Assembly (NCBI RefSeq): GCF_003797835.1
Contig: NZ_RKMF01000005.1
Coordinates: forward strand, 62,001 to 126,000
Length of the DNA stretch: 64,000 nt
Direction of reading: 5' to 3'
Source of the DNA: Kocuria soli
GTDB taxonomy: Bacteria > Actinomycetota > Actinomycetes > Actinomycetales > Micrococcaceae
Shown: piece after piece, positions 29,902 through 46,783 of the stretch
Layout: each line of letters begins with the position of its first letter
How positions within the stretch are numbered: the first letter of the stretch is position 1
Notes under the pieces: generated by a model
What the model was told of the DNA's origin: nothing
The model's input: the letters and a program-made list of their open reading frames with translations, nothing else
Database searches by the model: none
Position numbers and translations under genes: made by a program

Positions 29902-30732
29902 ATGAACTGGTTGAAGGCCGTTGAATCCGCGCTAACCGTCGCGCTCGACGACGTTGCAGCGCTGACGGCCGAGTCTTTCCCCTTGGACGAGCCTGTCAGG
30001 GTGGATGTCGCCTTACCCGAGTCAATACTTCCCCTGCTCGTCGTGCGCCGGGACAGTCCTCGACTCGTGATCCTGCACAACGGTGCGGTCGACCTGGAAC
30101 GTTCCGAGGGTCGGCCGATCTTCCAGCGTTCTTCCTGGTGGCCGGACATCCAGGCCAGCCAGATCTTCGTGTGTGACCCCGGTACGGTGGGACCGGAAGC
30201 CATCTCGCTCAACTGGTTGCAGGCCGGTCCCCCTGTGTGGCCTGCGCACCTGACCACCAAGGTCATCCTCTTGCTGGCCAAGTCCCTCGGCGCCCCGCGG
30301 CCGGAGCAGCGGACCTACTTCGGGTCTTCGGCCGGTGGATTTGGCGCTTTGGCTTGCCTGGCCTACGACGTCCGAGCCCGAGCAATCGTGAACAACGCCC
30401 AGTTCGACTGGACGCGGTGGTACCCCCACCAGGTCCGTGATGTCCTGACGCGGCGGTTTCCGGGGCATCTGGCCGCTGACGTCCGGAGAAAATGGCCCTA
30501 TCGGACGAATGTTCTTCGCCATTTGTCGAGGGGGCGGGTTCCGCTCCAGATCGACTTTTGGGTGAACCTGGCGAGCCAGTACGACCGGGACATTCAAATG
30601 CCCATTTGGGTGGACTTCCTGAAGAAAAGTCCATTGGTGGCTGGTAACTCGACATTGCACACGTATTTTGATGAGGAGTCCGGTCACAATCCCTTGTCGC
30701 GGGAGAAGACCCTCGAATTGCTGAACGGGTGA
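29902..30732 (+). CDS. Alpha/beta-hydrolase-like protein of the polysaccharide locus
   Basis: This 276-residue protein has a nucleophile-elbow motif (YFGSSAGGFGAL, Ser143) and a late His in ESGHNPLS (about residue 262). Between them lies NNAQFDWTRWYP, which matches N-x-Q-x-D-x-x-R-x-Y-type segments in two other products of this locus (30811-33693 C-terminal domain and 33744-34634). All three form one local family, so esterase or acyltransferase action on the glycan is a fair guess. It has no signal peptide. It starts one base after the upstream stop, so translation is coupled. Confidence 0.65.
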   Translation: MNWLKAVESALTVALDDVAALTAESFPLDEPVRVDVALPESILPLLVVRRDSPRLVILHNGAVDLERSEGRPIFQRSSWWPDIQASQIFVCDPGTVGPEAISLNWLQAGPPVWPAHLTTKVILLLAKSLGAPRPEQRTYFGSSAGGFGALACLAYDVRARAIVNNAQFDWTRWYPHQVRDVLTRRFPGHLAADVRRKWPYRTNVLRHLSRGRVPLQIDFWVNLASQYDRDIQMPIWVDFLKKSPLVAGNSTLHTYFDEESGHNPLSREKTLELLNG

Positions 30733-30810: not shown

Positions 30811-33693
30811 TCAAGACGTGAGTTGCTGATACACGGAGGTCATGATCTCTGCGTACTTGTCGTTGTCGACGGGCTTGTGTCCGTCTCCTAGGTACAAGTC
30901 CACCCGGTTGACTGTCGTGCCAACGCCCATGTCTTCCAGGGCCTCAAGGAGTGGGAGTTCATGGTTGGCCACGTGGATTCGGTCTCCGGAGTTGCTCACG
31001 TAGGTCAGGGACTGTCCCAACGTGCCGGTCGTCCGGCACCGGTGGGCCACGCTCACGCGCGCGAGCTCGTCGTCACGCGTTGGGTCTGACCGGTCTCCGA
31101 AGGCTGCTTCAAAGGCCCGCCGCGCATGCGCAGCAGAGTAGCGTCGAATGTCAGTTTGTGGGTTGAAGACGACCGCGTGCGCTTCGGGCATCTGAGCGGC
31201 CACTTGCATAGCAGCGAACCCCCCACCGGAATTGCCCTGAAGGACTACGTGCTCTGTTCCCCACGTCGCGGCGGCCCCACGGATCACGTCAACCATCGCG
31301 GTCGTGAGGTCCCAGAATCCGGCCCCCAGATACCACCCGAGTCGCATTTGAGCGTCGAGATCGAGCGTTGCGTCGCTGAAACCAAGAATCGGGCCCATGG
31401 CCAGGCTCCGTTGGAGGGCAACTCTTTGAAAGAGTGGCAATCTGGACTTGGTTCGGTTTATGGCTCCGTGGAAAAGGACCGTCAATGTGTTCCCCGGGTA
31501 CGGTTCCACAAGTGTCGGAAGGACCAGCGGTCCGAATTCCACGGTGTGGAGACCGGCCTGATTCAAAGTTGTGGTGTGATTCCAACCCCCGAGGTGAGTC
31601 TTGATCGGAAGGTCGTAGTAGGTGGGGCGCCACGTCTCGTCCTGAGCCCAGTTGATCAACGGGGCCCGATTCGCAACCATCGCGGCAGACCGCCCGCTCC
31701 TGGCCTGCCGAAGATCACTCAGGCAAGCTTCAAGGCCGAGGTCGAAGTCACCGCCCGGTAGCTCGGGCCGGAGTTCGGATTCGAGTTCGTCTGCGAAGGC
31801 CTGTCGCTCAGCGGAGTCGAGGTGGGCCGCGTCCGCACGTGCCCGTGCGAGTCTCTCGAGCACGCTGGCGTGTTCCTCACGAGTGAGCTGGCGTGCGGGG
31901 CCAGTGGCGTGTCCGGCTGACGCGGGACGGCCCGGAACGGCAGAAGCTGGAGCAGGGGCTAGATCCAGCGCAGCCGCGGCGTCCTCCGTCGAGGCCGGGC
32001 CCGAGAGAACACGGACGTCGCGGTCACGAATCACCATGGTTTCCGCGGAGAATCCGTTGTCCACGGTCAGCCCGAGGACTCCCGCCGGTAGACCTTTGAC
32101 AGTAGAGAACTTCGGTGCCGTCTTCTGACCCGCTGAAAGGACGGTGACGAATCGGAAGGACTTTCCGTGCTTGGTCATCTCGACAACTGGCGCGGGCACA
32201 CTCTGCTTCCAGGCGGTTGCAATACGACCTTCCGGTAGCCACGGTGCCGTGTTGCGAATGATGGACGTGTCGGCCTTGGTCCCAGAGGCATAGAGCGCGG
32301 CGGATTTCTCCCCGCTGCTCAACGCCACGACATTCTTTGTGGACTCGGCCTCCACGCCCGCACCCAGTTGCCAGCGCTGAACTGCGACGACGTCACGATC
32401 AGCGCGCACAGTGTCCACCACAACGAGGTACTCCCCACTGGTGGAGAACAAGACTCTGCGCGTCAGGTCTACGTCTGCGTAGCCCTGGTCAGCGACCGTG
32501 ATGTCCCAGTGGCTGTCGGCCTCTTGATGGGCCAGGAGCGCCACGTCTGCGTTCCGGTCACGGTGCTCGTCCGGGAGATACACCAGGCTGTGACTGGAGT
32601 GCGCGATGACGTACTTCCGGATCGGGTCCTCGTGCGTGTAGGAGTACTTCCCTGGATCCGTGATCCAGTTGACTCCCCCGGCGGCGAATGTCAGGGATCC
32701 GCCGTCCGGGTGGCCATGGACCTTGAAGCGTCCGAACGGCATCGAGAAGAACGTCTCCTCTGCCATGTCCCGTTCAAACTCCCCCCACCCACTGCGGCCG
32801 AAGGCATACCCGTCGCGGTAGAGCTTGAACAATTCCTGGGGTGGTTCTCCCTCGCTGCCCTGAGATGTCACATAGCGACATGCTGGGTGGTCCACACCGT
32901 CGGCCGAACCACCATCGGTGTCCCCGATCGGGACGAACAAGCCGTCGGGACGTGTCGCATGTGCAAGGGCCACTGGCGTGGCCTCCAGGGATTCGGCACC
33001 CGCCGGGTAATCCAGCCCGGCCAACTCCAGCCGAGCGAGCAGCCGCTGCCACCAGATGTAGTTGTTGCGGTGGTATGCGATGGCACCTTCTGCGTTGATG
33101 CCTTCTGCATCCCATTGTTCTCGTAAGAGTTGCCCGATCCGCTCGACCGCCAACTCTGTCCAGTCGTGTCGGCCCAGGGCGATGCCGCACAGGAGCAGAC
33201 CTTCGTGTTGGTGCAGGGCATGATTGGAATGGCCCAGATGCCTGGGGTCGGCGATCCAGGCTCCGTGTTCGGTGATCGTCTTCTCCAGAACGGGGAGGGA
33301 GTCCGGAAACAGCTCACTGATCATGGGCACGCCGAGGACGAGATGCGTGGCGCGGATCCCGTCGACCATGTTGGCCCAAGCCGCTATGCATTTGGACCTT
33401 CCAGGCGGATTGTTCCGTGCCCAGTCGGTCGCATGGCGGAGCCACAGCTCGGCAGCGGGGACGTCGCCGGCCCGTCCCGCTTGGGCAAGGGGCGCCATCC
33501 AGCGCAGCATGTGCAACTGATGGATCCAGTTCTTGTCGTTGAACGGGTCTTCGGTCCATGTCAGGTGCTTCGGCATTGACCAGGTCGGGTGGGGCCTGAG
33601 AGTCAGTTCGCCACGCAGCAGGGCACTGGAGAATTGGTTCTTCCTGGCCGGAGCCGTGATCTGCTGCGAAATCGCAGCGATGTCCAATGCCAA
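30811..33693 (-). CDS. Heparinase II/III-like lyase fused to an alpha/beta hydrolase domain
   Basis: This is a 960-residue fusion. Residues about 1-570 resemble heparinase II/III-type polysaccharide lyases. An all-alpha toroid carries NHALHQHEGLL and AIAYHRNN, and a beta-sandwich carries KVHGHPDGGSLTF and NWITDPGKY. A low-complexity Ala/Pro linker and a charged helix (about 575-640) lead to a hydrolase domain with GNSGGGFAAM (Ser822), NPQTDIRRYS and LGDGHKP (His939). There is no signal peptide, so it is cytoplasmic or secreted unconventionally. It may cleave or edit uronic-acid glycans. It is the last gene of the minus-strand operon. Confidence 0.8.
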   Translation of the reverse strand: MALDIAAISQQITAPARKNQFSSALLRGELTLRPHPTWSMPKHLTWTEDPFNDKNWIHQLHMLRWMAPLAQAGRAGDVPAAELWLRHATDWARNNPPGRSKCIAAWANMVDGIRATHLVLGVPMISELFPDSLPVLEKTITEHGAWIADPRHLGHSNHALHQHEGLLLCGIALGRHDWTELAVERIGQLLREQWDAEGINAEGAIAYHRNNYIWWQRLLARLELAGLDYPAGAESLEATPVALAHATRPDGLFVPIGDTDGGSADGVDHPACRYVTSQGSEGEPPQELFKLYRDGYAFGRSGWGEFERDMAEETFFSMPFGRFKVHGHPDGGSLTFAAGGVNWITDPGKYSYTHEDPIRKYVIAHSSHSLVYLPDEHRDRNADVALLAHQEADSHWDITVADQGYADVDLTRRVLFSTSGEYLVVVDTVRADRDVVAVQRWQLGAGVEAESTKNVVALSSGEKSAALYASGTKADTSIIRNTAPWLPEGRIATAWKQSVPAPVVEMTKHGKSFRFVTVLSAGQKTAPKFSTVKGLPAGVLGLTVDNGFSAETMVIRDRDVRVLSGPASTEDAAAALDLAPAPASAVPGRPASAGHATGPARQLTREEHASVLERLARARADAAHLDSAERQAFADELESELRPELPGGDFDLGLEACLSDLRQARSGRSAAMVANRAPLINWAQDETWRPTYYDLPIKTHLGGWNHTTTLNQAGLHTVEFGPLVLPTLVEPYPGNTLTVLFHGAINRTKSRLPLFQRVALQRSLAMGPILGFSDATLDLDAQMRLGWYLGAGFWDLTTAMVDVIRGAAATWGTEHVVLQGNSGGGFAAMQVAAQMPEAHAVVFNPQTDIRRYSAAHARRAFEAAFGDRSDPTRDDELARVSVAHRCRTTGTLGQSLTYVSNSGDRIHVANHELPLLEALEDMGVGTTVNRVDLYLGDGHKPVDNDKYAEIMTSVYQQLTS

Positions 33694-33743: not shown

Positions 33744-34634
33744 TTATCCGCGCTCAAGGTCCTGGAACGGACGACGATACTCATGCGCGGTCCGAAATCC
33801 GGCTTCGCTCCAGGCCGGTGAGTCCCAGGACTCGGTCAAGGCCATGTCCAGAGTGTGCACGATGAGTTCCTTGGGTGGGGCCTTGTGGCCATCTCCCCAG
33901 TCGCCCAGCATGAATCGCACATCTGGATTCTCGCGGGTGGCTTCGATGAAAGGTACGAAGTGCGGTGCAACGTGGTCGGCGTCGCCGGCGTTCTGCATGT
34001 ACACCACTCGGTTGGGCGACCCTTGCGCATAGAGGGACACGAGGTCGGTGCAGGGCGGGACGCGCGCCAGGTCCGCTGGGATGTCCACACCTGAGGTTTT
34101 CCAGCAGATTTTCAACCAGCGGCGGACCAATCCGGTGTTGTAGTTCCGCAGATCGGTCTGCGGGTTGGAAACAACCGCGATGCTTCCGGGGAGACGGTGT
34201 CCGTTGACCAGGCTCGCGAAGGCCCGTGCGGACCCGCCGTACAAGACCGTGCGGGCACGCGGTGCGGCGCTTTGGTAGTGGGCGATGATGCGGGGCAGCA
34301 CCTCGGCCAACGGTTGTCGCACGCTTCCCGTGTACCGGGCAAGAAAGACTTCCGGCGCCAACGCCGTCGACGGGTCGGAGAAGTGCAGGCCGTTCGTGTT
34401 CAAGGTTCGACTGATACCGAACCCGGTGAACCTTGGTGCCAAAGAATCCTTGGGTACCGCCGCAGTGAAGAACACCGTGAGGTTCTCGCTACCGCGTGCG
34501 ATGTAGCGGAAGTCGAGCGGAACGGGCTGCAGGTTGATTCGGATCACCCTGGACTGTCGATCATCCCGGGCAAGGAATTCCTCCAGGCTGCCGTAGATCA
34601 CATCGGGTTCGTGGTGCGGGTCCAGGGCAACCAT
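33744..34634 (-). CDS. Alpha/beta-hydrolase-like protein, paralogue of the fused domain
   Basis: This 296-residue protein aligns by eye with the C-terminal domain of the neighbouring fusion. LYGGSARAFASL holds the putative nucleophile Ser135 in a GGS-x-R setting. SNPQTDLRNYN matches the fusion's FNPQTDIRRYS, and LGDWGDGHKAPP supplies the histidine. The nucleophile context is less canonical than G-x-S-x-G, so activity is not assured. Its ATG shares one base with the TGA of the 1818-residue gene (TGATG), implying coupled translation. Substrate unknown; probably acts on the same polymer. Confidence 0.65.
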   Translation of the reverse strand: MVALDPHHEPDVIYGSLEEFLARDDRQSRVIRINLQPVPLDFRYIARGSENLTVFFTAAVPKDSLAPRFTGFGISRTLNTNGLHFSDPSTALAPEVFLARYTGSVRQPLAEVLPRIIAHYQSAAPRARTVLYGGSARAFASLVNGHRLPGSIAVVSNPQTDLRNYNTGLVRRWLKICWKTSGVDIPADLARVPPCTDLVSLYAQGSPNRVVYMQNAGDADHVAPHFVPFIEATRENPDVRFMLGDWGDGHKAPPKELIVHTLDMALTESWDSPAWSEAGFRTAHEYRRPFQDLERG

Positions 34635-37600
34635 CAGACGTCACTGCTTCCAAGGTCGGGCCGCGTGTCGTCCGTCAAGGAATGGTTCTGGTCGTATGAA
34701 ACATGCGCAGGATTCTGGTGGCCTTCCTCGCTTTCGAAGACGAACTCGGTGCGAGTACGTGCCTCCCCTTGGAACTCACCCGTCCAACGGACGGACCATG
34801 CCGGTTCAGTTCTTCGGTCCTCGCGGGATCGGACCCCTTCCACCTCTTCCCAGGTGTCGCCTATGCGGTTGGTGCGGACGGTGAGTTCTTCGTCAAGACC
34901 AGATATGCGCTTGAGGTGCAATGGTCCACCCCACTTCATGGACCTGATTCCGAGACCCTTCCCTTGCGCGTCCTCGCCTTGCATCCCCTGCTCGTCCGTG
35001 ATCTCGAGGCCGCCGTCGAGCAAGAACCAGGAATGCAGCGTGTGGCGCTCATCGTCCTGTGTCACGACGTGGTCCTCGATGACGAGCCGACGGCCCGGAT
35101 GGTACGTGACGGTTCGTTCAGATTCCCATCCGTCGTGGGGCACCGCAGTCACGATCCGGTATCCGCCGTCGTCAAGACGATCGAAGGAGACCAGCCCGGA
35201 TCCGTACGGCGCACGACGGCGGTCATGGAGCCTCGAGTCGACACTCACGGTTGAATGGGCAGCGCAGGATTCCATGTACTGGCGAATAGGATCTGAGTAA
35301 TAGAAGCCGTTGCTGCGCAATGGCGAGTCCTGCGGCAGCAGATCGCCATAGCGGTATCGGCCCCCGTCCACCAGAATTTCCTGGCCGTCTTCGAACCACA
35401 CCAGGCTTTGATCGTCACAGTGCTTATGCGTCCGGGAGTGGAATCCCGCCGTGACAGCCAGGTAGCTCGCATTTCTCCCCTCCTGCTCATCGGCATTGAG
35501 CCGACGCACGATCGCATAGCCCGTCTCCGGGAGGACCAAGGCGTCGTCGGTCGGGGCGACACCGCGGGCACCCTTGGACAGGACCCAGTCCGTTGTTGCC
35601 GACGAGGACGTGTCGGTGGCGTCCAGACGGCCTTGGGCAGAGTCCCCCAACTGAAGCACCTGGCCTTGCGGCAGGATCATCCAGCCCAGAGCGTCGGCGG
35701 CCTTCCCAATGCGGCTCACAACCTCGGGATCCTGTACGGCACCGAGGCTTATGGCGCCCTCGAAGGAGTTCAAGAGCATCCGGTGGTACTCCGGGGAATG
35801 CTCGGCGTGGCCGCCGTCGGACAGGAACTGTGTGGCCGTCATGATGCGAAGTCGGGAATCGCCCTGAGCCTTGAGGGCTTTCATTCCCGGAAGTTGCGGA
35901 AATGCCCGGGACAGGACCACCTGGCTGACGGCCGAGTAGTACCCGTGATTGTTCCGGGGGTTGAAGGAATCGGGACGCCAATGGGCATCGCGCTGACGCA
36001 GTGTCGACGCCACCAATGTGTTGAAGTCGGAATCGGAGACCGCAGAGGACCCTGCCACGGCGCGGATCAGCCCCTGCAAAGCCACGGATCGGTACGCCAA
36101 GGCCATGTCGTACCACGCCATGGTGGATGGATCGATGACCGGGAAGTACGTTGCCCACCGCAAAGCCCGTTGAACCGCCCACTCGAGATAGTGTGCGCTG
36201 CCAGTCTCTTCCCAGGCTTCAAGGACTGGTGTGAGGAACTCCCAGCTGTGCAGGTACATCTGCAACGTCCGGTCAAGTTCCTCGACCTGGAGCCAGTCGA
36301 AGTCTTCCGGGATGGCAATGGCCGGGAATCCGTGATTGGACCAGCCGTCCGCAATGATCTCGTCGGCGGTCCGGACGGGGTCGTACTGCGGCTGGCCCGT
36401 ATGGACGGTGAGATACCGAAGTGCCTCATGACGGCTGAGATTGCGCAGATCATTGCGCAGCGCAAGCGCATCGTATGGCTCGGAGAGTGGATCATCGGCG
36501 GGCCTGAACGGCAGAAACCCGACGTTCTCGTACGGAGCGTCGTAGAGGTCTGCAATGGCCGCCCAGGACCGTGCTTGGCGTACCCACTCCGCCCCCTTGA
36601 CCGACATGGCCAGGCGCCTTTCAGGATCATTCAGCAGTTCGTTGAGCACCTGCGCCAGGTCGGCCGGGTCACCTGCAGTGAAAGTTGCGGCAGCTCCGCT
36701 CTGGTCGGCGATTTCCCGTAGGGCATCGACGTCGGAGACCACAACGGCCCGGCCCGTGGAAAAGGCTTCGAAGGGTTTGAGGGGTGTGACCAGGCGGCAC
36801 ACGGTCCGGTCCTTGCGTGGCACCACGAAGAGGTCGATCAAGCTGTAGTAGTTGAGAACGCTCTCGTGCGGGACCCGTCCCGTGAAGATCACACGATCCG
36901 CGACGCCCAGGTTCTTGGCCAGGTGCTCCAGTGAAGACCGCACCGGTCCGTCTCCGACGAGCAGTAACCATGTCTCCGGTTGTTCTTGTAGGACGGTTCG
37001 GAATGCAGTGAGCAGCGTGTCAATGCCCTCGTACTCGACCACGGACGTGATGTACCCGATCACCGGGGCCTCAGGCGGAATCCCCAGTTCGGCCTTGAGT
37101 GTCAGGTCCGGTTCGATAACCGGGAACTCGTCCGGCTGGACGCCGTTGGGGGTCACGGAGACCTTGGCGGCTTCCTCACCGCGCTCGACGATGTGGTCCT
37201 TCATGACCTCGGCGAGCGTGGTCACCCGGTCCGAAAGCGCCCGAGCAGCATCCTCCCGCGCGCGGCGCAGCGTGTAGGCCTCGGGCAGACCGTAGCGGTC
37301 GTAGTCGCGAGTCAGGTCTCGGCCCGACTTGGTCTCGATGCGGGAGAGCCACGATTCTTCCCAGAACCCGCGGCTCTCGTAGACCACAGGGAGTCCGAAG
37401 GCCTGGGCCACCGGGTGGGCGATCATGTGATTCACGAAATCCGAATGGCAGTGCAGCACGCTTGGGCGCACGCGCGCCACCAACTCGGACAATTCTCGGA
37501 CGTTCAGTTCCAACCATTCGTCCCACGGCAGGGTTCCGCGCGGTTGCCCTTCGGGTAGGTGATAGGTCACCCCGTCCAGAAGCACTTCGGGTTCTTCGAC

Positions 37601-40090
37601 GGCCTCGGGGACACCCCCGGCCTGCCGGAAGGCGTGGACGTCGTAACCCTTCTGCACCTGCGCTTGGGCAAGGTAGTGCGTGCGTAGGGTGTAGCCGGTT
37701 TGAGTCTCCGGAATGGCCTTTCCGACGACGTGCAGCACACGACCGGCCACAGGCTCGAAAGATTCCGGGGGCTCACAGTTCAGAGTGATCTCACCGCGCA
37801 TCATGGCGATTTCCGAGGTTCGGATCTCGATGGTCCGGCGGTCCTTGTCGCTGCCCGTCACCGTGAGCACGCTGTTGAGCAATTCCAGGCTGCGGAGCCA
37901 GTAACCGCGTGAGTAGAGGTCCTTGGCCAGGTGACGTCGCTGGGCGAGCGTCAGCGGGATCGCGTCGGTCTTGTGGCGCCACTGCTCGTAGACGTACAGC
38001 GGATCCTGGATGTACGGCAGGTACTGGGCGAAGTCTGCTCCCCCGAGGATCGTGCGACGTGGGACATCGGGCGGCAACAGCGGCAGGATGGCGGCGACCA
38101 GCTTGAGTTCACGTTCCAGATCGTCCTGGTGGACCTTGGCCAGTTGCTTGACCTTCTTGGAGGTCGACGCCAGTTTCTGCTCGACGTCTTCGACACCCCT
38201 GTTCTCGACAGCGGTGGCCTCGGCCTGACGGGCGCTCACGAGCGCGAGTCTCTGCTCGAGTGCGTCCAGCCGTGTCCGTAGCACCGCCGCCTCGAAGTCG
38301 GATTTGATTTCGGGCACTTCAACCCCCTTGTAGACAGGGTCCTGTTCGACGGTCACACCGTCCTGGTCGATGGTGATGCCCCAGATCTGACCGGCCCGCT
38401 GGACCCTGAGCCAGGCGGTATCGGCCTTCACCCGGCTCGAAACCACCGACCAAGGATCCTGGGTCGACTCACCGAGCACCGTGGTGAAGAAGCCCCGGCG
38501 GGCCTTCTGCTCCACGTGGAAGCCTGCGGCCTTGTTCTTCTTGCCCCAGCGGCCCGAGACCCAATTCTCGGGTCGGCCGTCCTCCGCATAGGACACCTTG
38601 GGTCGGGCACCACCGGCCAGCCAGTTGACCGTGAACCGGCGGCCGTCAGCGGTCTGCAGTTCCAACGCTTGGTCTCGATAGCGTGGTTTGACCCCTGAGT
38701 CCGTGTGCCAGAGCTGTCTGGCCACCACCTCGTCAGTGCTGTCGAAGACATCCGTGACCACCATGAGGTCCAGAGCCGGCAGATAGACGATCCGGCGGGT
38801 GAGTCGCACGCCGTCGTAGTTCGAGTCCACCACGGTCATGTCGTGCACGGTGTCCGTGAAGTCCACCGATTGCAGGGTCACGTGCCCTTCGCGGTCGTAG
38901 TCCTTGCCGTCGATCACGACGAGGTTGTGGCCTGCCCGGGAACGGAGATACCGGCGGAACGGGTCCTTGGGCTCGTACATGTACGACCCGGGATCGGTGA
39001 TCCAGTCGAAGCCGTTGGCGAAGAAGGTCAGACCGCCCCTGTCCTCGTGGTGGTGGGCCGAATAGGCCCTGCCGAACCGAAGGCTGTAGTGACTGTGTTC
39101 TGCGAAGGATCCGTCCTGCTCACCCCAGCCCGAGCGTCCCATGACGTAGCCATTTGAGGCGGCAACGGCAGTAGCGGCCGGTGGCATGCCTGCAGTTCCC
39201 TGGCTGGCCACGTACTCGAGTTCCGGGAACCCCATATCCGTGACCTCACGGAGGTGAGTGTCCCCGATCGGCACCATCGTTCCATCGGGTCTCGTGGCGT
39301 GCGCCAGGAACGTAGCGGCCTGAGCGAGTTGGGCGGCAACGGACTCAGGAACCCTTCCCCCTTCCTGGGCGACACGGTCCCACGTCTTCTGCCACCACGA
39401 GATGTTCATCCGGTGGTAGTCGATCGAGCCTTCGTCGTTGGCACCGTTCTCGTCGAAAGACACCTCGAAGAGACGGGCCAATCGACCGATGCTCAGGTCG
39501 CGCCACTTGTCATGTCGCAGAAAGCTCGAGAGCACGAACAGTCCAATGTTCTGGTGCAGGGCGTGATTGGCGTGGGACTGGTGCTCCTCGTCGGCCAGCC
39601 ATTCGCCGTGGGTCTCGAGCGCACCGAGGAGCACGCCCCGTTCCTCGTCGGTCTTGGCCAGCGGCCAGCCAAACACCAGTTCCTGGGCCCGCAGGCCGTC
39701 TGCCATGTCCACCCAAGAAAACTGGGAGGCCGGCGCATCGGGATGGTTGTGCTCGATCCAGGACCGCACCGTGGCAAGCCAGAACTGGCGGGCCTCCTCC
39801 GAACCGTCTGTCGCGGAATGGCGTACGGGTGAGAGCCAGCGCAGAGCGTGGAACTGGAACTGCCAGTTGCGTGAGCCGAAGGGGTCGGCCGACCAGTCGT
39901 CGTAGCCATCGGTCTTCCACACAGCGTGCGGGGCCAGCTGCAAGGAGCCGGACATGACCTTGGCAGCCCGATCGTCGTTGTTGTCCCGGCGTTCGAACCC
40001 GGCTCCCACACACTGCCGCGTGCAGACGTCCTCGTTGACGTCGTAGCGCTGTAGCAGATCCTGGATCGTGCCGCTGTCGGTGTCTGTCAT
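34634..40090 (-). CDS. Giant three-part protein: heparinase II/III-like, GT4 glycosyltransferase, heparinase II/III-like
   Basis: This is an 1818-residue single reading frame. Residues about 45-590 form a heparinase II/III-like lyase (NHALHQNIGLF at 175, DYHRMN at 224, HHHEDRGGLTF at 346). A charged coiled coil spans about 598-665. Residues about 783-1180 are a GT4 glycosyltransferase (IPETQTGYTLRTH near 793, SVTPNGVQPDEF near 978, LKPFEAFSTGRAVVVSD with the acidic EX7-type site at 1104). A second, divergent lyase module fills about 1250-1790 (HAEHSPEYHRM at 1428, HKHCDDQSLVWF at 1555). There is no signal peptide. The ATG at 40088-40090 excludes an unrelated 50-codon extension. Build-and-cut of one polymer is the inferred role. 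Confidence 0.85.
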   Translation of the reverse strand: MTDTDSGTIQDLLQRYDVNEDVCTRQCVGAGFERRDNNDDRAAKVMSGSLQLAPHAVWKTDGYDDWSADPFGSRNWQFQFHALRWLSPVRHSATDGSEEARQFWLATVRSWIEHNHPDAPASQFSWVDMADGLRAQELVFGWPLAKTDEERGVLLGALETHGEWLADEEHQSHANHALHQNIGLFVLSSFLRHDKWRDLSIGRLARLFEVSFDENGANDEGSIDYHRMNISWWQKTWDRVAQEGGRVPESVAAQLAQAATFLAHATRPDGTMVPIGDTHLREVTDMGFPELEYVASQGTAGMPPAATAVAASNGYVMGRSGWGEQDGSFAEHSHYSLRFGRAYSAHHHEDRGGLTFFANGFDWITDPGSYMYEPKDPFRRYLRSRAGHNLVVIDGKDYDREGHVTLQSVDFTDTVHDMTVVDSNYDGVRLTRRIVYLPALDLMVVTDVFDSTDEVVARQLWHTDSGVKPRYRDQALELQTADGRRFTVNWLAGGARPKVSYAEDGRPENWVSGRWGKKNKAAGFHVEQKARRGFFTTVLGESTQDPWSVVSSRVKADTAWLRVQRAGQIWGITIDQDGVTVEQDPVYKGVEVPEIKSDFEAAVLRTRLDALEQRLALVSARQAEATAVENRGVEDVEQKLASTSKKVKQLAKVHQDDLERELKLVAAILPLLPPDVPRRTILGGADFAQYLPYIQDPLYVYEQWRHKTDAIPLTLAQRRHLAKDLYSRGYWLRSLELLNSVLTVTGSDKDRRTIEIRTSEIAMMRGEITLNCEPPESFEPVAGRVLHVVGKAIPETQTGYTLRTHYLAQAQVQKGYDVHAFRQAGGVPEAVEEPEVLLDGVTYHLPEGQPRGTLPWDEWLELNVRELSELVARVRPSVLHCHSDFVNHMIAHPVAQAFGLPVVYESRGFWEESWLSRIETKSGRDLTRDYDRYGLPEAYTLRRAREDAARALSDRVTTLAEVMKDHIVERGEEAAKVSVTPNGVQPDEFPVIEPDLTLKAELGIPPEAPVIGYITSVVEYEGIDTLLTAFRTVLQEQPETWLLLVGDGPVRSSLEHLAKNLGVADRVIFTGRVPHESVLNYYSLIDLFVVPRKDRTVCRLVTPLKPFEAFSTGRAVVVSDVDALREIADQSGAAATFTAGDPADLAQVLNELLNDPERRLAMSVKGAEWVRQARSWAAIADLYDAPYENVGFLPFRPADDPLSEPYDALALRNDLRNLSRHEALRYLTVHTGQPQYDPVRTADEIIADGWSNHGFPAIAIPEDFDWLQVEELDRTLQMYLHSWEFLTPVLEAWEETGSAHYLEWAVQRALRWATYFPVIDPSTMAWYDMALAYRSVALQGLIRAVAGSSAVSDSDFNTLVASTLRQRDAHWRPDSFNPRNNHGYYSAVSQVVLSRAFPQLPGMKALKAQGDSRLRIMTATQFLSDGGHAEHSPEYHRMLLNSFEGAISLGAVQDPEVVSRIGKAADALGWMILPQGQVLQLGDSAQGRLDATDTSSSATTDWVLSKGARGVAPTDDALVLPETGYAIVRRLNADEQEGRNASYLAVTAGFHSRTHKHCDDQSLVWFEDGQEILVDGGRYRYGDLLPQDSPLRSNGFYYSDPIRQYMESCAAHSTVSVDSRLHDRRRAPYGSGLVSFDRLDDGGYRIVTAVPHDGWESERTVTYHPGRRLVIEDHVVTQDDERHTLHSWFLLDGGLEITDEQGMQGEDAQGKGLGIRSMKWGGPLHLKRISGLDEELTVRTNRIGDTWEEVEGVRSREDRRTEPAWSVRWTGEFQGEARTRTEFVFESEEGHQNPAHVSYDQNHSLTDDTRPDLGSSDV

Positions 40091-40097
40091 GGAGAAC

Positions 40098-42350
40098 CTA
40101 TCCCGCAGGGGTCGACGCGCGTCGGCCTCCGAGCTGATCGTAGATATCGGACACGATGCCTGCCACGCCGGACCATTGGCGGTTTTCAACCACCCAGGTG
40201 CGGCCGCGTTCGGCGAGATCCTGGCGTTGCTGCGGGTCATTCAGCAGCTGCTCCAGGACCCGTACCAGGTCGTCGGTGTCACCCTTGCGGTGCAACAGGC
40301 CGTTGACACCGGGTGTGATGATTTCGGCCAGGGCCGCGACGTCCGAGGCGACCACGGCCTTCTGCATGGCCAGGGCCTCAAACGGCTTGAGTGGCGAGAC
40401 CATCTCGCAGACCGGAAGCGGGAGTCGCGGGAACGGGGCAATGTCCACCAGCGAGTAATACCGCTCGACGTCCTGGTGAGGTACCCGGCCTGTGAACCGC
40501 ACCAAGCCCTCCAGTCCTCGCTCCTGGACGATCCCCTGGAACTTCTCCAACTCCGCACCGTCGCCCACGATCAGCACGGCGAAGTCGTCGCGGTTTCGGC
40601 CCAGGATCTCCGCGGCGTCGATCAGCAGACCGAGACCCTCGTAGTCCAGAACCGATCCCACGTAGCCGATCACTGTCTTGCCCTGCAGACCCAGCTCAGC
40701 CTCCAGACCGGAGTCGCGGTCCTGAGGCTGGAACCGGTCTCCGTTGACGGCGTTGGGCACCACCGTGATCTTGTCGCCGTCCACCCCGCGGCTGATGAGT
40801 TCGTCCTTGAGCGCCTGGGTGATGGCCAGGACGTGGGTGGCCTCGGCTGCGGCGTCGGCCTCCATACGGGCCATGAACTTGTACATGCCACCCTGTGCCC
40901 ACTCGGGATCGCGTGATCCTCGGGTGACTTCCCAGAGCCCGCGCACTTCGTAAATGGACGGAATCCCCAGGCGATTGGCGGTGGCCACGGCGGCCAGTCC
41001 GTTCCAGTGGTTGGAGGCCGCGTGCAGGATCGCGGGGCGCTCGGACCGCGCCGTCCTCTCCAGAGCGCGGGAGTAGCGCTCCACGTAGGAGGTGATGGGG
41101 CTCTTCTTCTCGATTCCCGCGGTGATGCTGAGCCGGTGGTACGGGACACCGTCCACCACGTCGGTCTCCGGAATGGGACCGAGTTCGGCCATGCCCGGCA
41201 TGTCGTACGGATACCCGAGTCGGGTCACGCCGCGAACGTCCCAGCCCTGGTCCCGCAGTCCGGTCAGAAGACCGTGCGTTCGGGTGCTGTAGCCGGCGGA
41301 GTGATACGGCAAGGAGTTGTGCAGCAGGTAGAAGATCCGATCCCCCACCGCGTCGTATGCACTGCGGTCCCGACGATGCGGGAACGGAAAACCTTGCTTG
41401 GCCAGCTGATAGTTGGACGGGGTCGAGTTCTTCCGCAACCGTTCGTCGTGCTGCCGTGCCCAACCGTCCTCCGGCTCCAGACGACGGTACTCCGCCAGCA
41501 ACCGCCGGGCACCTGGCAACCGGTTGTCCCTCAGATCACGACGGATCGCCAGACGTAGGGACCAACGGGACACGGCCCGGTCCGGCAACTGGTGCATGAG
41601 TTCGATGGCCCGGGTCCGCCGCCCTCGTTGCAGACTGAACAGCAGCTTGGCAAGGACGTACTCGTCCTCCGACAACCACGCGGGCTTGGGATAGTCCCAG
41701 GCGGCCTCCGGCTCAAGGGCCTGTTCCACGACGGCGCGGGTGATGCGGTCGGGGCTTTCGGCAAGGATCGGCAAGGCCGCGTCCAATGACGACGGGATGA
41801 CGAAGTCCAGTGAACGCCGGTGCTGGTCCGGACGCTGCTCAAGTGCTGCCACCAGTGCGTCATACGCCTCGAGAACGGCCGGCATACGTTCCTTGTCGCC
41901 GGTGCCGGCGTCGACCAACAACTCCAGGGCGTCCAGGTTGGCCGGGTCCTCCGCCAACGCGTTCTTGAGGGCTTCGAAGGCTGCCCCGTAGTTGCGCGAC
42001 TCCATGAGCCGGAGTGCGTACAGTTGCCAGGCCGTCGAATCGTGCGGCTGATCCAACAGCAACCGACGGAGATGGTCGACCGCCTCGGCAGAGTTTCCAC
42101 CGTCACGGGCCTCCGCGGAACGTCCGAGGGCTTGTGCCCGCACACTAGCCGCGCGTTCGGCCTCCCGTTCACGGTCGGCCTCGAGCTCTGCGGCCACCCG
42201 TTCGGCGAGCGTCTCGGCCGCCAGGCTCGCGTCGGCGTCGGGGGCGGAAGTAGCCTGCACCTCGAGTCCGGAGGGGGTCAACCACTGAGCCGTGGTCCGA
42301 CGCAGGTGCCAGAGTCGACGTCGTGCGTCGTCGTACATGGGGGGTGCCAT
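40098..42350 (-). CDS. GT4 glycosyltransferase with N-terminal helical/TPR region
   Basis: This 750-residue protein has a coiled-coil and TPR-like N-terminal third (a charged Glu/Arg/Ala helix, then YALRLMESRNYGAAFEALKNAL). The GT4 part begins near LHNSLPYHSAGYSTRTHGL and has VVPNAVNGDRF, VGDGAELEKF and LKPFEALAMQKAVVASD. It is closely related to the glycosyltransferase module of the downstream giant protein, 7 bp away. The ATG at 42348-42350 follows AAGGAC. It lies in the same operon and probably adds one sugar of the repeat unit; donor and linkage are unknown. Confidence 0.85.
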   Translation of the reverse strand: MAPPMYDDARRRLWHLRRTTAQWLTPSGLEVQATSAPDADASLAAETLAERVAAELEADREREAERAASVRAQALGRSAEARDGGNSAEAVDHLRRLLLDQPHDSTAWQLYALRLMESRNYGAAFEALKNALAEDPANLDALELLVDAGTGDKERMPAVLEAYDALVAALEQRPDQHRRSLDFVIPSSLDAALPILAESPDRITRAVVEQALEPEAAWDYPKPAWLSEDEYVLAKLLFSLQRGRRTRAIELMHQLPDRAVSRWSLRLAIRRDLRDNRLPGARRLLAEYRRLEPEDGWARQHDERLRKNSTPSNYQLAKQGFPFPHRRDRSAYDAVGDRIFYLLHNSLPYHSAGYSTRTHGLLTGLRDQGWDVRGVTRLGYPYDMPGMAELGPIPETDVVDGVPYHRLSITAGIEKKSPITSYVERYSRALERTARSERPAILHAASNHWNGLAAVATANRLGIPSIYEVRGLWEVTRGSRDPEWAQGGMYKFMARMEADAAAEATHVLAITQALKDELISRGVDGDKITVVPNAVNGDRFQPQDRDSGLEAELGLQGKTVIGYVGSVLDYEGLGLLIDAAEILGRNRDDFAVLIVGDGAELEKFQGIVQERGLEGLVRFTGRVPHQDVERYYSLVDIAPFPRLPLPVCEMVSPLKPFEALAMQKAVVASDVAALAEIITPGVNGLLHRKGDTDDLVRVLEQLLNDPQQRQDLAERGRTWVVENRQWSGVAGIVSDIYDQLGGRRASTPAG

Positions 42351-42444: not shown

Positions 42445-43707
42445 TCAGCGCCAGAGGCCCTTCGTGTCGACGACGGCCTTGCCTGCCAGGGCCGTCGCGG
42501 GAAGATCCTTGAACTCGTCGTGGTCCACGAGCAACAGCACGACGTCGGCGCGTTCGATTGCGTCGCGGTATTCCGCGAACTCGACGTTGGCCAGTCCCTC
42601 GAGTGCCTTCGGGAGGGCCTGGACATTGGGCTCGACGGCGAGCACGGTGGCATCGGGCGTGGAGCCGGCAAGCTCCTTGGTGATGTCCAGTGCCGGAGAC
42701 TCGCGCAGGTCGTCGATGTTGGCCTTGAACGCGAGTCCGAGGGCCGCGACCACGGGCGAAGCCTTGTGGGACACAGCGTCCCTGACTTTGTTGATCACCC
42801 AGTGGGGCTTGCCGTCGTTGACTTCACGGGCGGTCCGGATGAGGTTCGAGTTCTCGCGGTCGGAGGAGACGATGAACCACGGGTCGACGGCGATGCAGTG
42901 GCCACCCACGCCGGGGCCCGGCTGCAGGATGTTCACCCGGGGGTGGTGGTTGGCTAGCTCTATGAGCTCCCAGACGTCGATCCCGAGCTTGTCCGAAATC
43001 AGGGAGAGCTCGTTGGCGAAGGCGATGTTGACATCGCGGAAGGAGTTCTCCGTGAGTTTGGCCATCTCGGCCGTGACGTCGTCGGTCTCCAGGAGCTCGC
43101 CCTTGCAGAACGTCTCGTACACCGCCCGTCCGCGCTTGGCGGCTTCCGGGGTCATGCCGCCGATGATGCGGTCGTTGGTGATCAGTTCCTCCATCGCGCG
43201 CCCCGGAAGGATGCGCTCCGGGCAGTAGGCCAGGTGGATGAGCTTCTTGTCGCCCTGCGCCGCTTCCTCCGGATCGACCGTGAGATCGGGGCGGGCGCTG
43301 GTGAGCACCTCGGCGAGCTTCCGGGTGGTCAGCGGAGGCGAGGTCGACTCCAGGATCACGAGTTCATCGCCCTGCAGCAACGGAGCGATGTTGGCGGCTG
43401 CGGCCTCGATGAAGGAGGTGTCGCCCTCGTAGTTCTCCTTGAACGGAGTGGGAACCGCGATCACGTAGGCGTCCCCCGACTGCATGTCCGTGTGCGCGGT
43501 GAGGCTCCCGGAATCGACGGCCTTCTTGAGTTCCTCCTCCAAACCCGGCTCCACGATGGTGACCTCACCGCGAGACACACGGTCCACGACGGATTGATTC
43601 ACGTCGACGCCGCGGACCTGCACGCCACTGTTGGCCAGGGTCACGGCCGTGGGAAGGCCGATGTAACCGAGGCCGACGAAAACGACTGTCTGGAGATTCT
43701 GCGCCAT
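42445..43707 (-). CDS. wecC: UDP-N-acetyl-D-mannosamine dehydrogenase (UDP-ManNAcA forming)
   Basis: WecC oxidises UDP-ManNAc to UDP-ManNAcA with two NAD+. It has an N-terminal Rossmann motif (VGLGYIGLPTA), the TENSFRDVNIAFANEL helix, a GVGGHCIAVDP segment with the catalytic Cys, and a C-terminal UDP-binding domain (GLAFKANIDDLRESP). The 420-residue length is normal. WecC rather than a UDP-glucose dehydrogenase is preferred because wecB is present and the motif details fit. It has its own upstream gap of 125 bp and a terminator after it, so it may be transcribed separately from its neighbours. Confidence 0.93.
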   Translation of the reverse strand: MAQNLQTVVFVGLGYIGLPTAVTLANSGVQVRGVDVNQSVVDRVSRGEVTIVEPGLEEELKKAVDSGSLTAHTDMQSGDAYVIAVPTPFKENYEGDTSFIEAAAANIAPLLQGDELVILESTSPPLTTRKLAEVLTSARPDLTVDPEEAAQGDKKLIHLAYCPERILPGRAMEELITNDRIIGGMTPEAAKRGRAVYETFCKGELLETDDVTAEMAKLTENSFRDVNIAFANELSLISDKLGIDVWELIELANHHPRVNILQPGPGVGGHCIAVDPWFIVSSDRENSNLIRTAREVNDGKPHWVINKVRDAVSHKASPVVAALGLAFKANIDDLRESPALDITKELAGSTPDATVLAVEPNVQALPKALEGLANVEFAEYRDAIERADVVLLLVDHDEFKDLPATALAGKAVVDTKGLWR

Positions 43708-43832: not shown

Positions 43833-45812
43833 TCATAATCTCACGTGCTCCTGCCAATCCCCCATGGAAACGACCACCCCGGTTGAGACGACGTGTTGGT
43901 CCGTAACATTCCAGGTGTGACCGTGCCCTCCGCGGAACTGGCGGAAATTGAATCGATCGGTTGCATAGATCCGGAGCCCGGAATTGGCCACGGAGTCCAG
44001 GAAAGCGCTGTCCTCGCCCGTCGTTCTGGATTCGAACGGGTGTTGTTCGAAGACTTCGCGGCGGGCCATCAGCGTGGGTCCCAGGACGAAATCCGTCCAC
44101 CGGTGCTCCCGCTCGGCAAATCGCAGCAACGTCACGTTGTAAGACTCGACGTACATGAAGCTCGCCTGTTTGCCCACGACGTCTGCACCCGTGACCCGGA
44201 GCATGGCCAACTGGTCGCGGAGGTAGTTCGGTCCGTACCAGTCGTCGTCGTCCATCTTCGTTATGACCTCGCCGGTGGCGGCGGCCACTCCCGCGTTGAA
44301 GCACTCCCCCAGCGTCCAGTCTTCCGGGGCGTCGACGATCCTGAGCTTCTCGATCCCGTAGGCCGTGGCCATGTCCGTCAGCGACTGCTCGCCGGCGCCG
44401 GTGTCCGCACCGAATCCGTGGCAGACCACCACGAGTTCAAGATCAACGCCGATCTGCGCGCCGATGGTCTGCAGCGCAACAGGGAGGTTCTTGGGACGGT
44501 TGGTGCACAGGACCGCGGAAACCGTGGGGTCGGACGGCAGCCAGGGCTTGCCGTCGGGTCGGGTTCCCAGCGCCGCGCTCAGCACCTCGGCGGCGCGATG
44601 CGTGTAGGTGTGGTGCGCCCAGATCCGCCTCTGCCCCAGCCGAACGGTCCGCGCGGCCAACTCGGGACTGCGGACGAGGGTCCGGATGACGTCTGCCGCG
44701 GAGGACCGGTCGGTCACCACGGGGAGTTCCTCCTGGGGGAAGTACTCCCCCACGGCTGCGGAGGGGGTGGACACCACGGGAGTCCCGCGGGAGATGATCT
44801 CGAAGATCCGACGCGCGCACATCGACGGCGAATCCACCACGGAGTTCACGTTCAGGAACACCTTGTACGCCTGATAGGCCGTCAGCATCTGGCGGTAGTT
44901 CAGGGAACCCACGACCCGACGGTCCAGGGGCGGGGGGAACTGGTACCTCTCGTCGTCGCCGAGGTAGCGGGAGAAGATCTCCAGCCCGCGGTTCATGCGG
45001 AAGGAGACGTCGTCGGCCCCACCCAGCAGCAGGTCCATCTGCTCGCGGCGTTCAGGGTACTTGTGGGCGAAGTACATGCCGCCGAAGGCAACGTCCCGCT
45101 CGTGGAACCCGTGCGCCGGGCGGGCCGGTGAGTGGATGGCCGGCTGCGCGGCGAACGGGAGTACGGCCACCCGGTCGTGGCCAAGGGCCTCCCGGTAGGC
45201 GGGGATCAGGTTGACGTCGGAGGTGAACACGTGGTCGAAGAGATTGGCACATTCCAGGAAGTCCTCGTAGTGCGGCGGATCTTCCTTGTTCCAGAACACC
45301 GTGGGGATTCCACGGCGCCGGAACTCGGCCACCAGTTCCTTGAACGGTTCCTTGACCCCACTGGCGCCGGTGAGCTGGTACTGCCACTGGTCGTTGTTGC
45401 CGTGCCAGGCCGACTCCACAAACAGTAGGTCCGGTTGGGTTTCCTCCAGCTGAGTGCGCCAGCCCGTGCGGGTCAACGGCACCTGCTGCCATTCGTACCC
45501 GAAGGCCTGCGCGGAGAACCCGTCCAGGATGGTGGCCACGACGACGTCCTCATAGGGTCGCCGCCACGCTTCCGGAAGCGGTGCCTCCGGGAAGCTGAGC
45601 CCGGTGCCGCCGGAGGCGGTGGCCTGGGCCGTGGTGTTCGGAAGACGACGACGGCGCAAGTGCTTGCGTAACTGTTGCACGCCGCCTTCGCGCAGGTGCC
45701 ACATGGCGGTGCGAGCGCCCTGAGTCAGCCCCTGGGCCTTGCCGCCGAGCCCGGCAGCGGGTCTGCCCGGCGTGTTCGGGGAGGATGAGGAATCGACCGG
45801 TTCCAGGGTCAC
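43833..45812 (-). CDS. Two-module glycosyltransferase: CgeB/DUF3880-like plus GT2
   Basis: In this 659-residue protein, residues about 75-400 resemble CgeB/DUF3880-type GT-B proteins (FVESAWHGNNDQW, FWNKEDPPHYEDF, then SPSMCARRIFEIISRGTPVVS with the EX7-like donor site). Residues about 425-640 are a GT2 (GT-A) domain (SAVLCTNRPKNL, DDDDWYGPNYL metal site, GEDSAF). Two catalytic modules in one chain suggest sequential sugar additions. The GTG start overlaps the stop of the ABC-ATPase gene (GTGA, 4 bp), so it belongs to the exporter operon. Sugar donors are unknown. Confidence 0.85.
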   Translation of the reverse strand: MTLEPVDSSSSPNTPGRPAAGLGGKAQGLTQGARTAMWHLREGGVQQLRKHLRRRRLPNTTAQATASGGTGLSFPEAPLPEAWRRPYEDVVVATILDGFSAQAFGYEWQQVPLTRTGWRTQLEETQPDLLFVESAWHGNNDQWQYQLTGASGVKEPFKELVAEFRRRGIPTVFWNKEDPPHYEDFLECANLFDHVFTSDVNLIPAYREALGHDRVAVLPFAAQPAIHSPARPAHGFHERDVAFGGMYFAHKYPERREQMDLLLGGADDVSFRMNRGLEIFSRYLGDDERYQFPPPLDRRVVGSLNYRQMLTAYQAYKVFLNVNSVVDSPSMCARRIFEIISRGTPVVSTPSAAVGEYFPQEELPVVTDRSSAADVIRTLVRSPELAARTVRLGQRRIWAHHTYTHRAAEVLSAALGTRPDGKPWLPSDPTVSAVLCTNRPKNLPVALQTIGAQIGVDLELVVVCHGFGADTGAGEQSLTDMATAYGIEKLRIVDAPEDWTLGECFNAGVAAATGEVITKMDDDDWYGPNYLRDQLAMLRVTGADVVGKQASFMYVESYNVTLLRFAEREHRWTDFVLGPTLMARREVFEQHPFESRTTGEDSAFLDSVANSGLRIYATDRFNFRQFRGGHGHTWNVTDQHVVSTGVVVSMGDWQEHVRL

Positions 45813-46783
45813 CGGTGCGCCCCCACCCAGGTCGGCGGCTGGTACTCGGCGGCGCGTTCGTCGCGGTAGGAGCGGGCGCTCAGCAGGTTCCCGGCGGCCA
45901 GCATCTTCATGTACTCGTCGTAGCGGTCCACGACTTCGTCGGTGTCGCCGTCCATGACCACCTCGCCGTCGTCGAGCCAGACGACCCGGGTGCAGAGTTG
46001 GCGGATTTCGCTCATCGAGTGGGAGACGAAGAGGACGCAGCCGGCGTTCTCACGGATCTCGTGCATTCGCGCCTGGCCCCGGGCTTGGAACTGGGCGTCA
46101 CCCGTGCTGAGCGCTTCGTCCAGGATCAGCACGTGCGGGTTGGTGGCGGTGGCCACGGCGAAACGCAGACGGGCCGCCATGCCGGAGGAGTAGGCCTTCA
46201 TCGGCCAGTGCAGAGCCTTGCCCAGGGCCGCGATCTCCACCAAGTCGTCGAAGACCTCGTCCACCTGCCGCGGATTCATGCCCTGGGCCAGGCAGCCCAG
46301 GCGGATGTTGCGGTCACCGGACAGTGCCGGGACCAGGGCCACGTTGACGCCGAGCTTGGCCGGGCGGTCCACGGCCCACACGCGGCCGCGGGTTGCGTTC
46401 ATCTGCCCGGCGACGATGTTCATCAGCGTCGACTTGCCCGAACCGTTCCTGCCGATGAAGCCGACGAACTCGCCCTGTTCGATCAGCAGGCGCACGTCCG
46501 TGAGTGCCTGGTTGTTCACGATGGGCGGTCGACCCAAGGCCTTGCGGAGCACCCTACGGGGCCCACTGACCTGGTCCTCCGCGTCGGAACCCGTGCTGGT
46601 GACCGTGTAGACCATGGTGACGTCGTCGATGACCACGGCCGGTCGGACGTCGGTGATCGCCGGCATCTGCTGCGTGCCGTTCTCCGCGACGACGGGCAGC
46701 GCCGCCGTCTCGGTGACGTCGGGCACCTCGCCCGTCCCCTGCAGAGGGTCGAGCGGGAGCGGTTCAGCGGCGCTCATTGGCAT
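45809..46783 (-). CDS. Polysaccharide ABC exporter, ATP-binding subunit (Wzt/TagH-like)
   Basis: This ATPase of a Wzm/Wzt-type exporter flips lipid-linked glycan across the membrane. Walker A is GRNGSGKST, the signature-region segment YSSGMAARLRFA is the variant typical of this exporter class, and Walker B is VLILDEALSTGD. A Q-loop region and the H-loop (VSHSM) are present. At 324 residues it has an extended N-terminus of about 70 residues and lacks the large carbohydrate-binding C-terminal domain of O9a-type Wzt. It overlaps the permease gene by 20 bp and the downstream glycosyltransferase gene by 4 bp. Confidence 0.92.
   Translation of the reverse strand: MPMSAAEPLPLDPLQGTGEVPDVTETAALPVVAENGTQQMPAITDVRPAVVIDDVTMVYTVTSTGSDAEDQVSGPRRVLRKALGRPPIVNNQALTDVRLLIEQGEFVGFIGRNGSGKSTLMNIVAGQMNATRGRVWAVDRPAKLGVNVALVPALSGDRNIRLGCLAQGMNPRQVDEVFDDLVEIAALGKALHWPMKAYSSGMAARLRFAVATATNPHVLILDEALSTGDAQFQARGQARMHEIRENAGCVLFVSHSMSEIRQLCTRVVWLDDGEVVMDGDTDEVVDRYDEYMKMLAAGNLLSARSYRDERAAEYQPPTWVGAHR

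Follow-up and report, generated by a model that had tools for sequence, protein, structure and literature searches.

Within the window analysed (the whole 64,000-nucleotide stretch of Kocuria soli DNA), we identified a protein of 1818 amino acids (34634–40090, minus strand) in which a PL12-like heparinase II/III module is followed by a coiled coil, a helical spacer, a GT4 glycosyltransferase (GT) and a second PL12-like module. This three-part protein probably helps to build an acidic cell-wall sugar chain, and its two lyase-fold modules most likely edit or trim that chain inside the cell before export. Our preferred reading, to which we assign a probability of roughly 0.45, is that of a single-chain assembly enzyme for a ManNAcA wall polymer of the teichuronic-acid type, with the lyase folds responsible for C5-epimerisation or tailoring on the polymer. 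No published description of a GT–heparinase fusion was found in the open-access papers searched.

Reading frame and module architecture

A frame scan found no stop codon in the single open frame between 34634 and 40240 on the minus strand. The longest frame opens at 40240, within the upstream GT gene; the ATG at 40090, which the initial annotation had taken as the start, comes 8 bases after that gene ends (40098) and agrees with the N-terminus of the homologue. From base composition (approx. 63% GC), 1868 codons in a row without a stop have a chance expectation of approx. 1e-22. In addition, the entire module order is kept, with 63% identity, in another Kocuria genome whose GC content differs. 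The uninterrupted lyase–GT4–lyase frame described in the initial annotation is thus borne out by the frame scan, the Pfam domains and this homologue. There is next to no chance that the frame reflects an assembly join or a fortuitous reading frame: we found no evidence in favour of it, and it is ruled out by the independent Kocuria homologue together with two-part homologues from other families. In keeping with the initial annotation, a simple hydropathy scan of the protein revealed no signal peptide; it also showed no membrane segment (top 19-residue mean of 1.24).

The N-terminal (residues 44–551; 38438–39961, minus strand) and C-terminal (residues 1244–1794; 34709–36361, minus strand) lyase-fold modules were delimited by Pfam, structural model and residue alignment. 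Pfam placed two stretches each of Hepar_II_III_N and Hepar_II_III_C (E values of 1.7e-30 and 6.4e-30; 107 and 104.9 bits against cut-offs of 22 and 24 respectively). AlphaFold models, with pLDDT values of 82.5 for the N module plus coil and 80.5 for the C module, predict an (alpha/alpha) toroid and a beta-sandwich, for which the nearest solved structures are PL12 lyases (TM approx. 0.7), the human dermatan sulfate epimerase 1 (DS-epi1; PDB 6hzn) also being matched (TM approx. 0.5). In sequence, too, PL12 is the nearest family. The PL12 heparinase III structures (PDB 5jmd, 4mmh and 4fnv) share the fold, the Hepar_II_III_N/_C pair and the aligned catalytic Asn, Tyr and His, but heparinase III is degradative, acts outside the cytosol, has no GT fusion and is only approx. 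16% identical when structurally aligned.

Alignment indicated a complete Asn/Tyr/His/Tyr set in both modules, namely N175-H176, Y225, H346 and Y372, plus H388, in the N module, and N1381-H1382, Y1435, H1555 and Y1581, plus H1612, in the C module. In each, the His–Tyr spacing is 26 residues, equal to that of H444–Y470 in PL33. By fold and domains, therefore, both modules belong to the PL12/heparinase II/III superfamily, with a predicted active site that is complete, and the alternative of an unrelated toroid fold was not borne out. The full catalytic set is also kept by a near-complete majority of the strong relatives. The Tyr/Tyr/His of a DS-epi1-type C5-epimerase is present in the modules, with H176 and H1382 as candidate counterparts of DS-epi1 His205, but lyases share these residues too, and because the residue sets overlap, they cannot by themselves tell a lyase from a C5-epimerase.

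Between the lyase folds, the AlphaFold model and periodicity define a coiled coil at residues 598–671 (38078–38299, minus strand), made of two long helices (598–628 and 634–671), the second with a heptad-like period of 3.5–3.6. A modelled helical spacer (residues 678–764; 37799–38059, minus strand) precedes the GT4 module (residues 783–1188; 36527–37744, minus strand). The Pfam positions of the protein are numbered on the 1868-residue longest frame, in which the GT4 domains span approx. 848–1218 (E value of 3.8e-27) with both GT-B halves found. This module is TIGR04063-like, scoring 296.7 bits against that family of XrtA-associated GTs, below the curated cut-off of 442, which makes it a relative and not a member; we infer its donor from the neighbouring genes only. 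Comparison of fused proteins delimited a 55-residue linker (36362–36526, minus strand) between the GT and the C-terminal lyase.

A wall-polymer locus with an ABC exporter

Judged by its gene content, the surrounding region is a locus for a ManNAcA (teichuronic-acid-type) wall polymer. It encodes a UDP-GlcNAc 2-epimerase, wecB (26652–27809, plus strand; TIGR00236, 453 bits, cut-off of 210), and a UDP-N-acetyl-D-mannosamine dehydrogenase, wecC (42445–43707, minus strand; NF008286, 563.7 bits, cut-off of 459), and these equivalogs uphold the link to a ManNAcA polymer proposed initially. Directly upstream of the three-part gene lies a GT4 with a TPR-like N-terminus (40098–42350), and further GTs are a two-domain protein (Glyco_trans_1_2 plus GT2; 43833–45812) and two GT4 enzymes (47740–49617 and 49614–50885). 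Export and attachment are represented by a TagH-like ABC exporter ATPase of 322 amino acids (45809–46777), an ABC-2 permease (46764–47759) and a LytR-CpsA-Psr (LCP) wall ligase (50941–52023), all of these genes and those of the GTs being on the minus strand; the exporter as a whole is TagGH-like. At 322 residues, the ATPase comprises the ABC domain only and a C-terminal carbohydrate-binding module (CBM) would not fit.

On the other side of the three-part gene, its stop is overlapped by the start of an alpha/beta-hydrolase-fold protein (33744–34634, minus strand) with a distant Asp2-like match via its family profile. Next comes a protein that joins a third PL12-like module to an alpha/beta hydrolase with a GNSGG motif (30811–33693, minus strand); at related loci, some such lyase–hydrolase proteins have lost the catalytic residues. 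Two plus-strand genes encode a second alpha/beta-hydrolase-like protein (29902–30732; GSSAGG motif in its family) and an asparagine-synthase-like amidotransferase (27906–29900), which has an LTGGxDS motif and a weak match to beta-lactam synthetase. All three lyase domains at the locus have intact catalytic residues.

The initial annotation had seen a paradox in joining a lyase, expected outside the cell, to a cytosolic GT4. This paradox is unneeded, as glycans of the ABC-dependent pathway are completed in the cytosol (PMC11231755) and an ABC exporter is encoded here; joining a lyase fold to a GT within the cytosol therefore poses no topological problem.

Relatives and their distribution

The complete three-part order is restricted to Kocuria (2 of 27 genomes), whereas the GT4 plus C-lyase half is a conserved two-part enzyme that occurs in four or more families of the same actinobacterial order. 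Conservation of the complete order thus extends to a second Kocuria, with other families holding only this half, and the initial annotation had overlooked that the second lyase of Kocuria was joined to an older and widely conserved pair. In eight genomes from three other families, the GT plus C-lyase half aligns unbroken across the linker with 40–44% identity, and the gap between GT and lyase is near-constant at 47–57 residues throughout the ten fused proteins that were measured. The fused forms make up one clade in both the GT tree and the C-lyase tree, and in the unfused forms (L040 and L041) the GT and lyase genes adjoin each other. At the position of the Kocuria N-lyase, the two-part forms outside Kocuria carry a membrane hairpin, probably N-in/C-in and so placing the enzyme in the cytosol, with a spacer of approx. 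120 to 310 residues between hairpin and GT.

Of the 34 lyase-fold genes in the Micrococcaceae, 28 have a UDP-ManNAc dehydrogenase gene no more than 30 kb away, where approx. 0.6 would be expected by chance. The impression that every such locus carries a lyase is nevertheless due to selection bias: a lyase is nearby in 28 of the 107 genomes with the dehydrogenase, and the gene is accessory. A phylum-wide search found lyase-fold genes to be rare outside the order and verified no further GT fusion (a 1322-residue frame, G734, being left out).

Possible roles: editing, cutting or holding the chain

The protein is a variant among the multi-module glycan assembly proteins of ABC-dependent pathways. 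WbbB (Klebsiella pneumoniae O12) and WbdA/WbdD (Escherichia coli O9a) likewise carry, in single or paired proteins, a coiled coil together with GT modules and a module that modifies the chain end (PMC11231755), but there the partner is a Kdo transferase, kinase or methyltransferase, whereas in Kocuria a lyase/epimerase fold stands on both sides of the GT. The coil between N-lyase and GT recalls this ruler–terminator class, with the N-lyase as a putative terminator, but the Kocuria exporter ATPase has no CBM. In the same family of organisms, Micrococcus luteus makes a ManNAcA wall polymer by membrane GTs, but its synthetase has two subunits of 52–54 kDa and a lyase is not mentioned in that account (PMC3005890). 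Similarly, the actinobacterial teichuronic-acid-like (TUA, utr) loci of Streptomyces vary in gene content, and the paper describing them does not mention a heparinase or lyase (PMC13274773).

According to our preferred reading, the GT4 module would add a sugar to a polyprenol-linked chain on the cytosolic side, and the lyase-fold modules would work on that same chain ahead of its export by the ABC transporter, after which the LCP enzyme would join the polymer to peptidoglycan. The modules would be C5-epimerases or tailoring enzymes comparable with DS-epi1, which has the same fold and residues and serves glycosaminoglycan (GAG) biosynthesis (PMC8006597, PMC11848413), acting on a uronate polymer through a His/double-Tyr motif, although it lacks a GT and is the weaker structural match. 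A Tyr, aided by His and the second Tyr, would remove the C5 proton of 4-linked D-ManNAcA, and re-entry of a proton from the opposite face would give L-GulNAcA with the chain unbroken. The initial proposal of a chain that both builds and cuts a glycan holds as regards a lyase fold whose active site is complete, but the cutting may instead be editing. We favour editing over cutting because three lyase domains are intact in a genome without GH88, and several active cytosolic endolyases would counter polymer synthesis; an accessory gene also fits something that sets a chemical variant. Against an epimerase stands the closer structural match to PL12 lyases, and no mention of L-GulNAcA in Kocuria walls was found in the literature searched.

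That closer match also favours a possible, if less probable, role in length control, in which the modules would be true lyases on the nascent chain and the coiled coil a ruler from N-lyase to GT, as in WbdD and WbbB. After beta-elimination, the non-reducing end of the lipid-linked part would be a 4,5-unsaturated uronate; this lacks the O4 acceptor and could not be extended. The N-lyase lies across the coiled coil from the GT, like the terminators of ABC-dependent systems, WbbB holds polymerisation and termination on one chain (PMC11231755), and the spacer in two-part relatives varies as a ruler might. However, the ATPase has no module to recognise a capped end, the majority of related loci have no lyase, the more widely conserved C-lyase is tied tightly to the GT without spacing, and three intact lyases sharing one cytosol seem costly. 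The fuller version of this idea, a self-limiting polymerase in which one polypeptide builds, measures and stops the polymer with no cap donor, the lyase across the coil cutting the chain as it grows and leaving an unsaturated uronate as the cap, we regard as rather doubtful. It is improbable that the lyase folds are mainly clamps holding the glycan for GT processivity, with catalysis lost or incidental: toroid lyases do form a closed tunnel round the chain (PMC11848413), and the lyase–hydrolase proteins without catalytic residues suggest that binding-only forms may exist, but the full set is intact in the two Kocuria modules and in almost every strong relative. Least probable of these roles is the degradation or recycling of acidic glycans, wall-derived or foreign. 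Although folds of this family are typically those of degradative lyases, the protein has no signal peptide and is fused to a GT, no degradative gene occurs at the locus, where the neighbours are synthesis and export genes only and which contains every Hepar_II_III_C domain of the genome, three in total; on this gene content and the absence of GH88, we rejected a degradative locus.

If the modules are epimerases, they would represent a bacterial family that has the DS-epi1 fold, epimerises uronates at C5 within the polymer and is coupled directly to a glycosyltransferase, and a bacterial model for the patterning of GAG-like chains. If they are lyases, they would set the length of a Gram-positive wall polymer through cap-by-cleavage, in a setting where little is understood about how length is controlled. 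In both cases, ‘heparinase’ genes in glycan synthesis loci, named after degradation, become testable as enzymes of synthesis.

Architecture and conservation of the three-part protein

The frame at 34634-40090 (-) encodes 1818 residues (an alternative, longer start at 40240 overlaps the upstream gene), and Pfam matches bear out the lyase-GT4-lyase order read by the initial annotation, with Hepar_II_III_N plus Hepar_II_III_C found twice and GT4 once. The modules are an N-lyase (residues 44-551), a coiled coil (598-671), a helical spacer (678-764), the GT4 glycosyltransferase (GT; 783-1188), a linker of 55 residues and a C-lyase (1244-1794), and AlphaFold gave mean pLDDT values of 82.5 for the N part including the coil and 80.5 for the C part. 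A simple hydropathy scan revealed no membrane segment and, as annotated, no signal peptide.

An artefact is ruled out by a whole-length homologue of 63% identity, found among 200 genomes of the family in Kocuria sp. MAG S28M_Sa_16, in a region of different GC content (~55% vs ~64% in the window) and with the same neighbouring gene order. The three-part order, kept in this second genome, occurs in only two of 27 Kocuria genomes. We found no description of a GT-heparinase fusion in the open-access papers searched; as multi-module assembly proteins of ABC pathways are already known, we regard this form as a variant of these.

The two-part unit and its active sites

An order-wide search of 396 genomes for long lyase-holding frames identified eight (loci L063-L069 and L074; families f11, f6 and f8) encoding GT4 followed by a C-type lyase, which align with the window protein in a single piece (40-44% identity, from its residues ~630-720 to ~1700-1780). 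Nine of ten proteins have 56-57 residues between GT and lyase and the tenth has 47, and modules of the window and two-part proteins form one clade in both the GT tree (100/100) and the C-lyase tree (100/99). The two-part proteins open with a hydrophobic hairpin, and most continue into a coiled region whose length varies; the Kocuria N-lyase occupies the hairpin position and groups in the tree with stand-alone lyases of similar loci. The GT4 and C-lyase pair is the older unit. In G067 and G180 (L040 and L041) the halves are neighbouring separate genes, and their placement among fused forms suggests later splitting. In L077 (7659-10568) and L078 (8419-11238) the C-lyase is joined to a truncated or degenerate GT, of which it carries just a portion of the N-terminal half, and the adjoining GT4 gene has an interrupted domain. 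Sister loci also hold fusions of GT4 with a Glyco_trans_1_2-type GT, ~1450-1540 aa long (L044:8836-13458, L050:11068-15603, L053:7100-11458, L059:2106-6692, L071:9490-13953, L076:10646-15100, L080:6220-10716 and L082:7585-11988).

Both modules are nearest to PL12 heparinase III by profile search (E values of 3.3e-27 for the N-lyase and 2.4e-43 for the C-lyase) and by Foldseek, with a weaker match to human dermatan sulfate epimerase 1 (DS-epi1; 6hzn). Catalysis in PL33 has been assigned to N238, Y291, H444 and a second tyrosine, 470, an apparatus largely common to PL12, PL15, PL17, PL21, PL39 and DS-epi1 (PMC11848413). The suggested alignment to lyase catalytic residues holds for each module (N175, Y225, H346 and Y372; N1381, Y1435, H1555 and Y1581), with the PL33 His-to-Tyr spacing of 26. 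The set is kept in nearly all strong relatives and lost in one lyase-hydrolase group of f11 and f6 loci, so the lyases keeping it are likely, judging from these residues, to be under selection for catalysis. Lyase-hydrolases adjoining the two-part proteins (L063:7876-12420, L064:9390-12299, L065:6331-9600, L066:8594-13159, L067:9383-12700, L068:13948-17028 and L074:4367-7795) have lost Asn, Tyr and the second Tyr, retain the hydrolase GNSGG motif and are probable pseudo-lyases. In divergent lyase-fold proteins of L079 (3756-6356) and L081 (5010-7025) the catalytic His is Lys.

A ManNAcA wall-polymer locus

Close to the three-part gene lie those for a UDP-ManNAc dehydrogenase and a UDP-GlcNAc 2-epimerase, each scoring above its NCBIfam equivalog cut-off, and the locus also holds an LCP ligase, several GTs and an ABC exporter closest to teichoic-acid exporters. 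The predicted gene set is that of a ManNAcA wall polymer with ABC-transporter export, in line with the link first proposed. The compartment conflict between GT and lyase raised by the initial annotation falls away, since ABC-exported chains are finished in the cytosol (PMC11231755). The start of a downstream alpha/beta-hydrolase gene overlaps the three-part gene's stop, and beyond it comes a third lyase, which is fused to a hydrolase. An asparagine-synthase-like amidotransferase with no Pfam match (27906-29900) is a candidate for amidating a uronate, and its L046 counterpart forms a single protein with the adjoining hydrolase-like one. Upstream of the LCP gene, 52104-53942 encodes a protein of 612 aa that gave no family match and has a relative in L066, and a subtilase with three S-layer homology domains (54868-56841) lies just beyond the locus.

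Proposed action on the chain: epimerizing or cutting

Architecture, conservation, locus, exporter type and intact residues are the observed basis of our proposal, in which the GT would extend a lipid-linked ManNAcA chain by a residue and, ahead of export, this chain would also be the target of the lyase folds. Sequence alone cannot separate epimerizing from cutting. We favour epimerization or tailoring (probability roughly 0.45) because three intact lyase domains share one cytosol, degradative partner genes were looked for and none found, distribution is patchy, the GT linker is tight and DS-epi1 provides a precedent for the fold in synthesis (PMC8006597). The main rival, length control by true lyase action that cuts and caps the chain, seems to us a doubtful but serious contender: the nearest relatives are lyases, elimination would yield a non-extendable end and a coiled coil separates the GT from an end module, here the N-lyase, as it does the terminators in WbdD and WbbB, whereas the exporter ATPase lacks a carbohydrate-binding module and the majority of loci have no lyase.

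Outside the phylum, GT4 relatives lie in wecB-wecC clusters on E. coli and Leisingera plasmids; that of the gull-derived E. coli IncF plasmid pCE1537-B (L086) reads wecB-wecC-asparagine synthase-GT4. In a polysaccharide cluster of Cytobacillus, the gene for a lyase-fold protein without a signal peptide overlaps that for a GT. Within the Micrococcaceae, a lyase-fold gene lies ≤30 kb from the UDP-ManNAc dehydrogenase gene in 28 of 34 lyase-fold genomes (~0.6 expected), and only 28 of the 107 genomes with the dehydrogenase have a nearby lyase; the lyase is therefore an accessory part that makes variants of the polymer.
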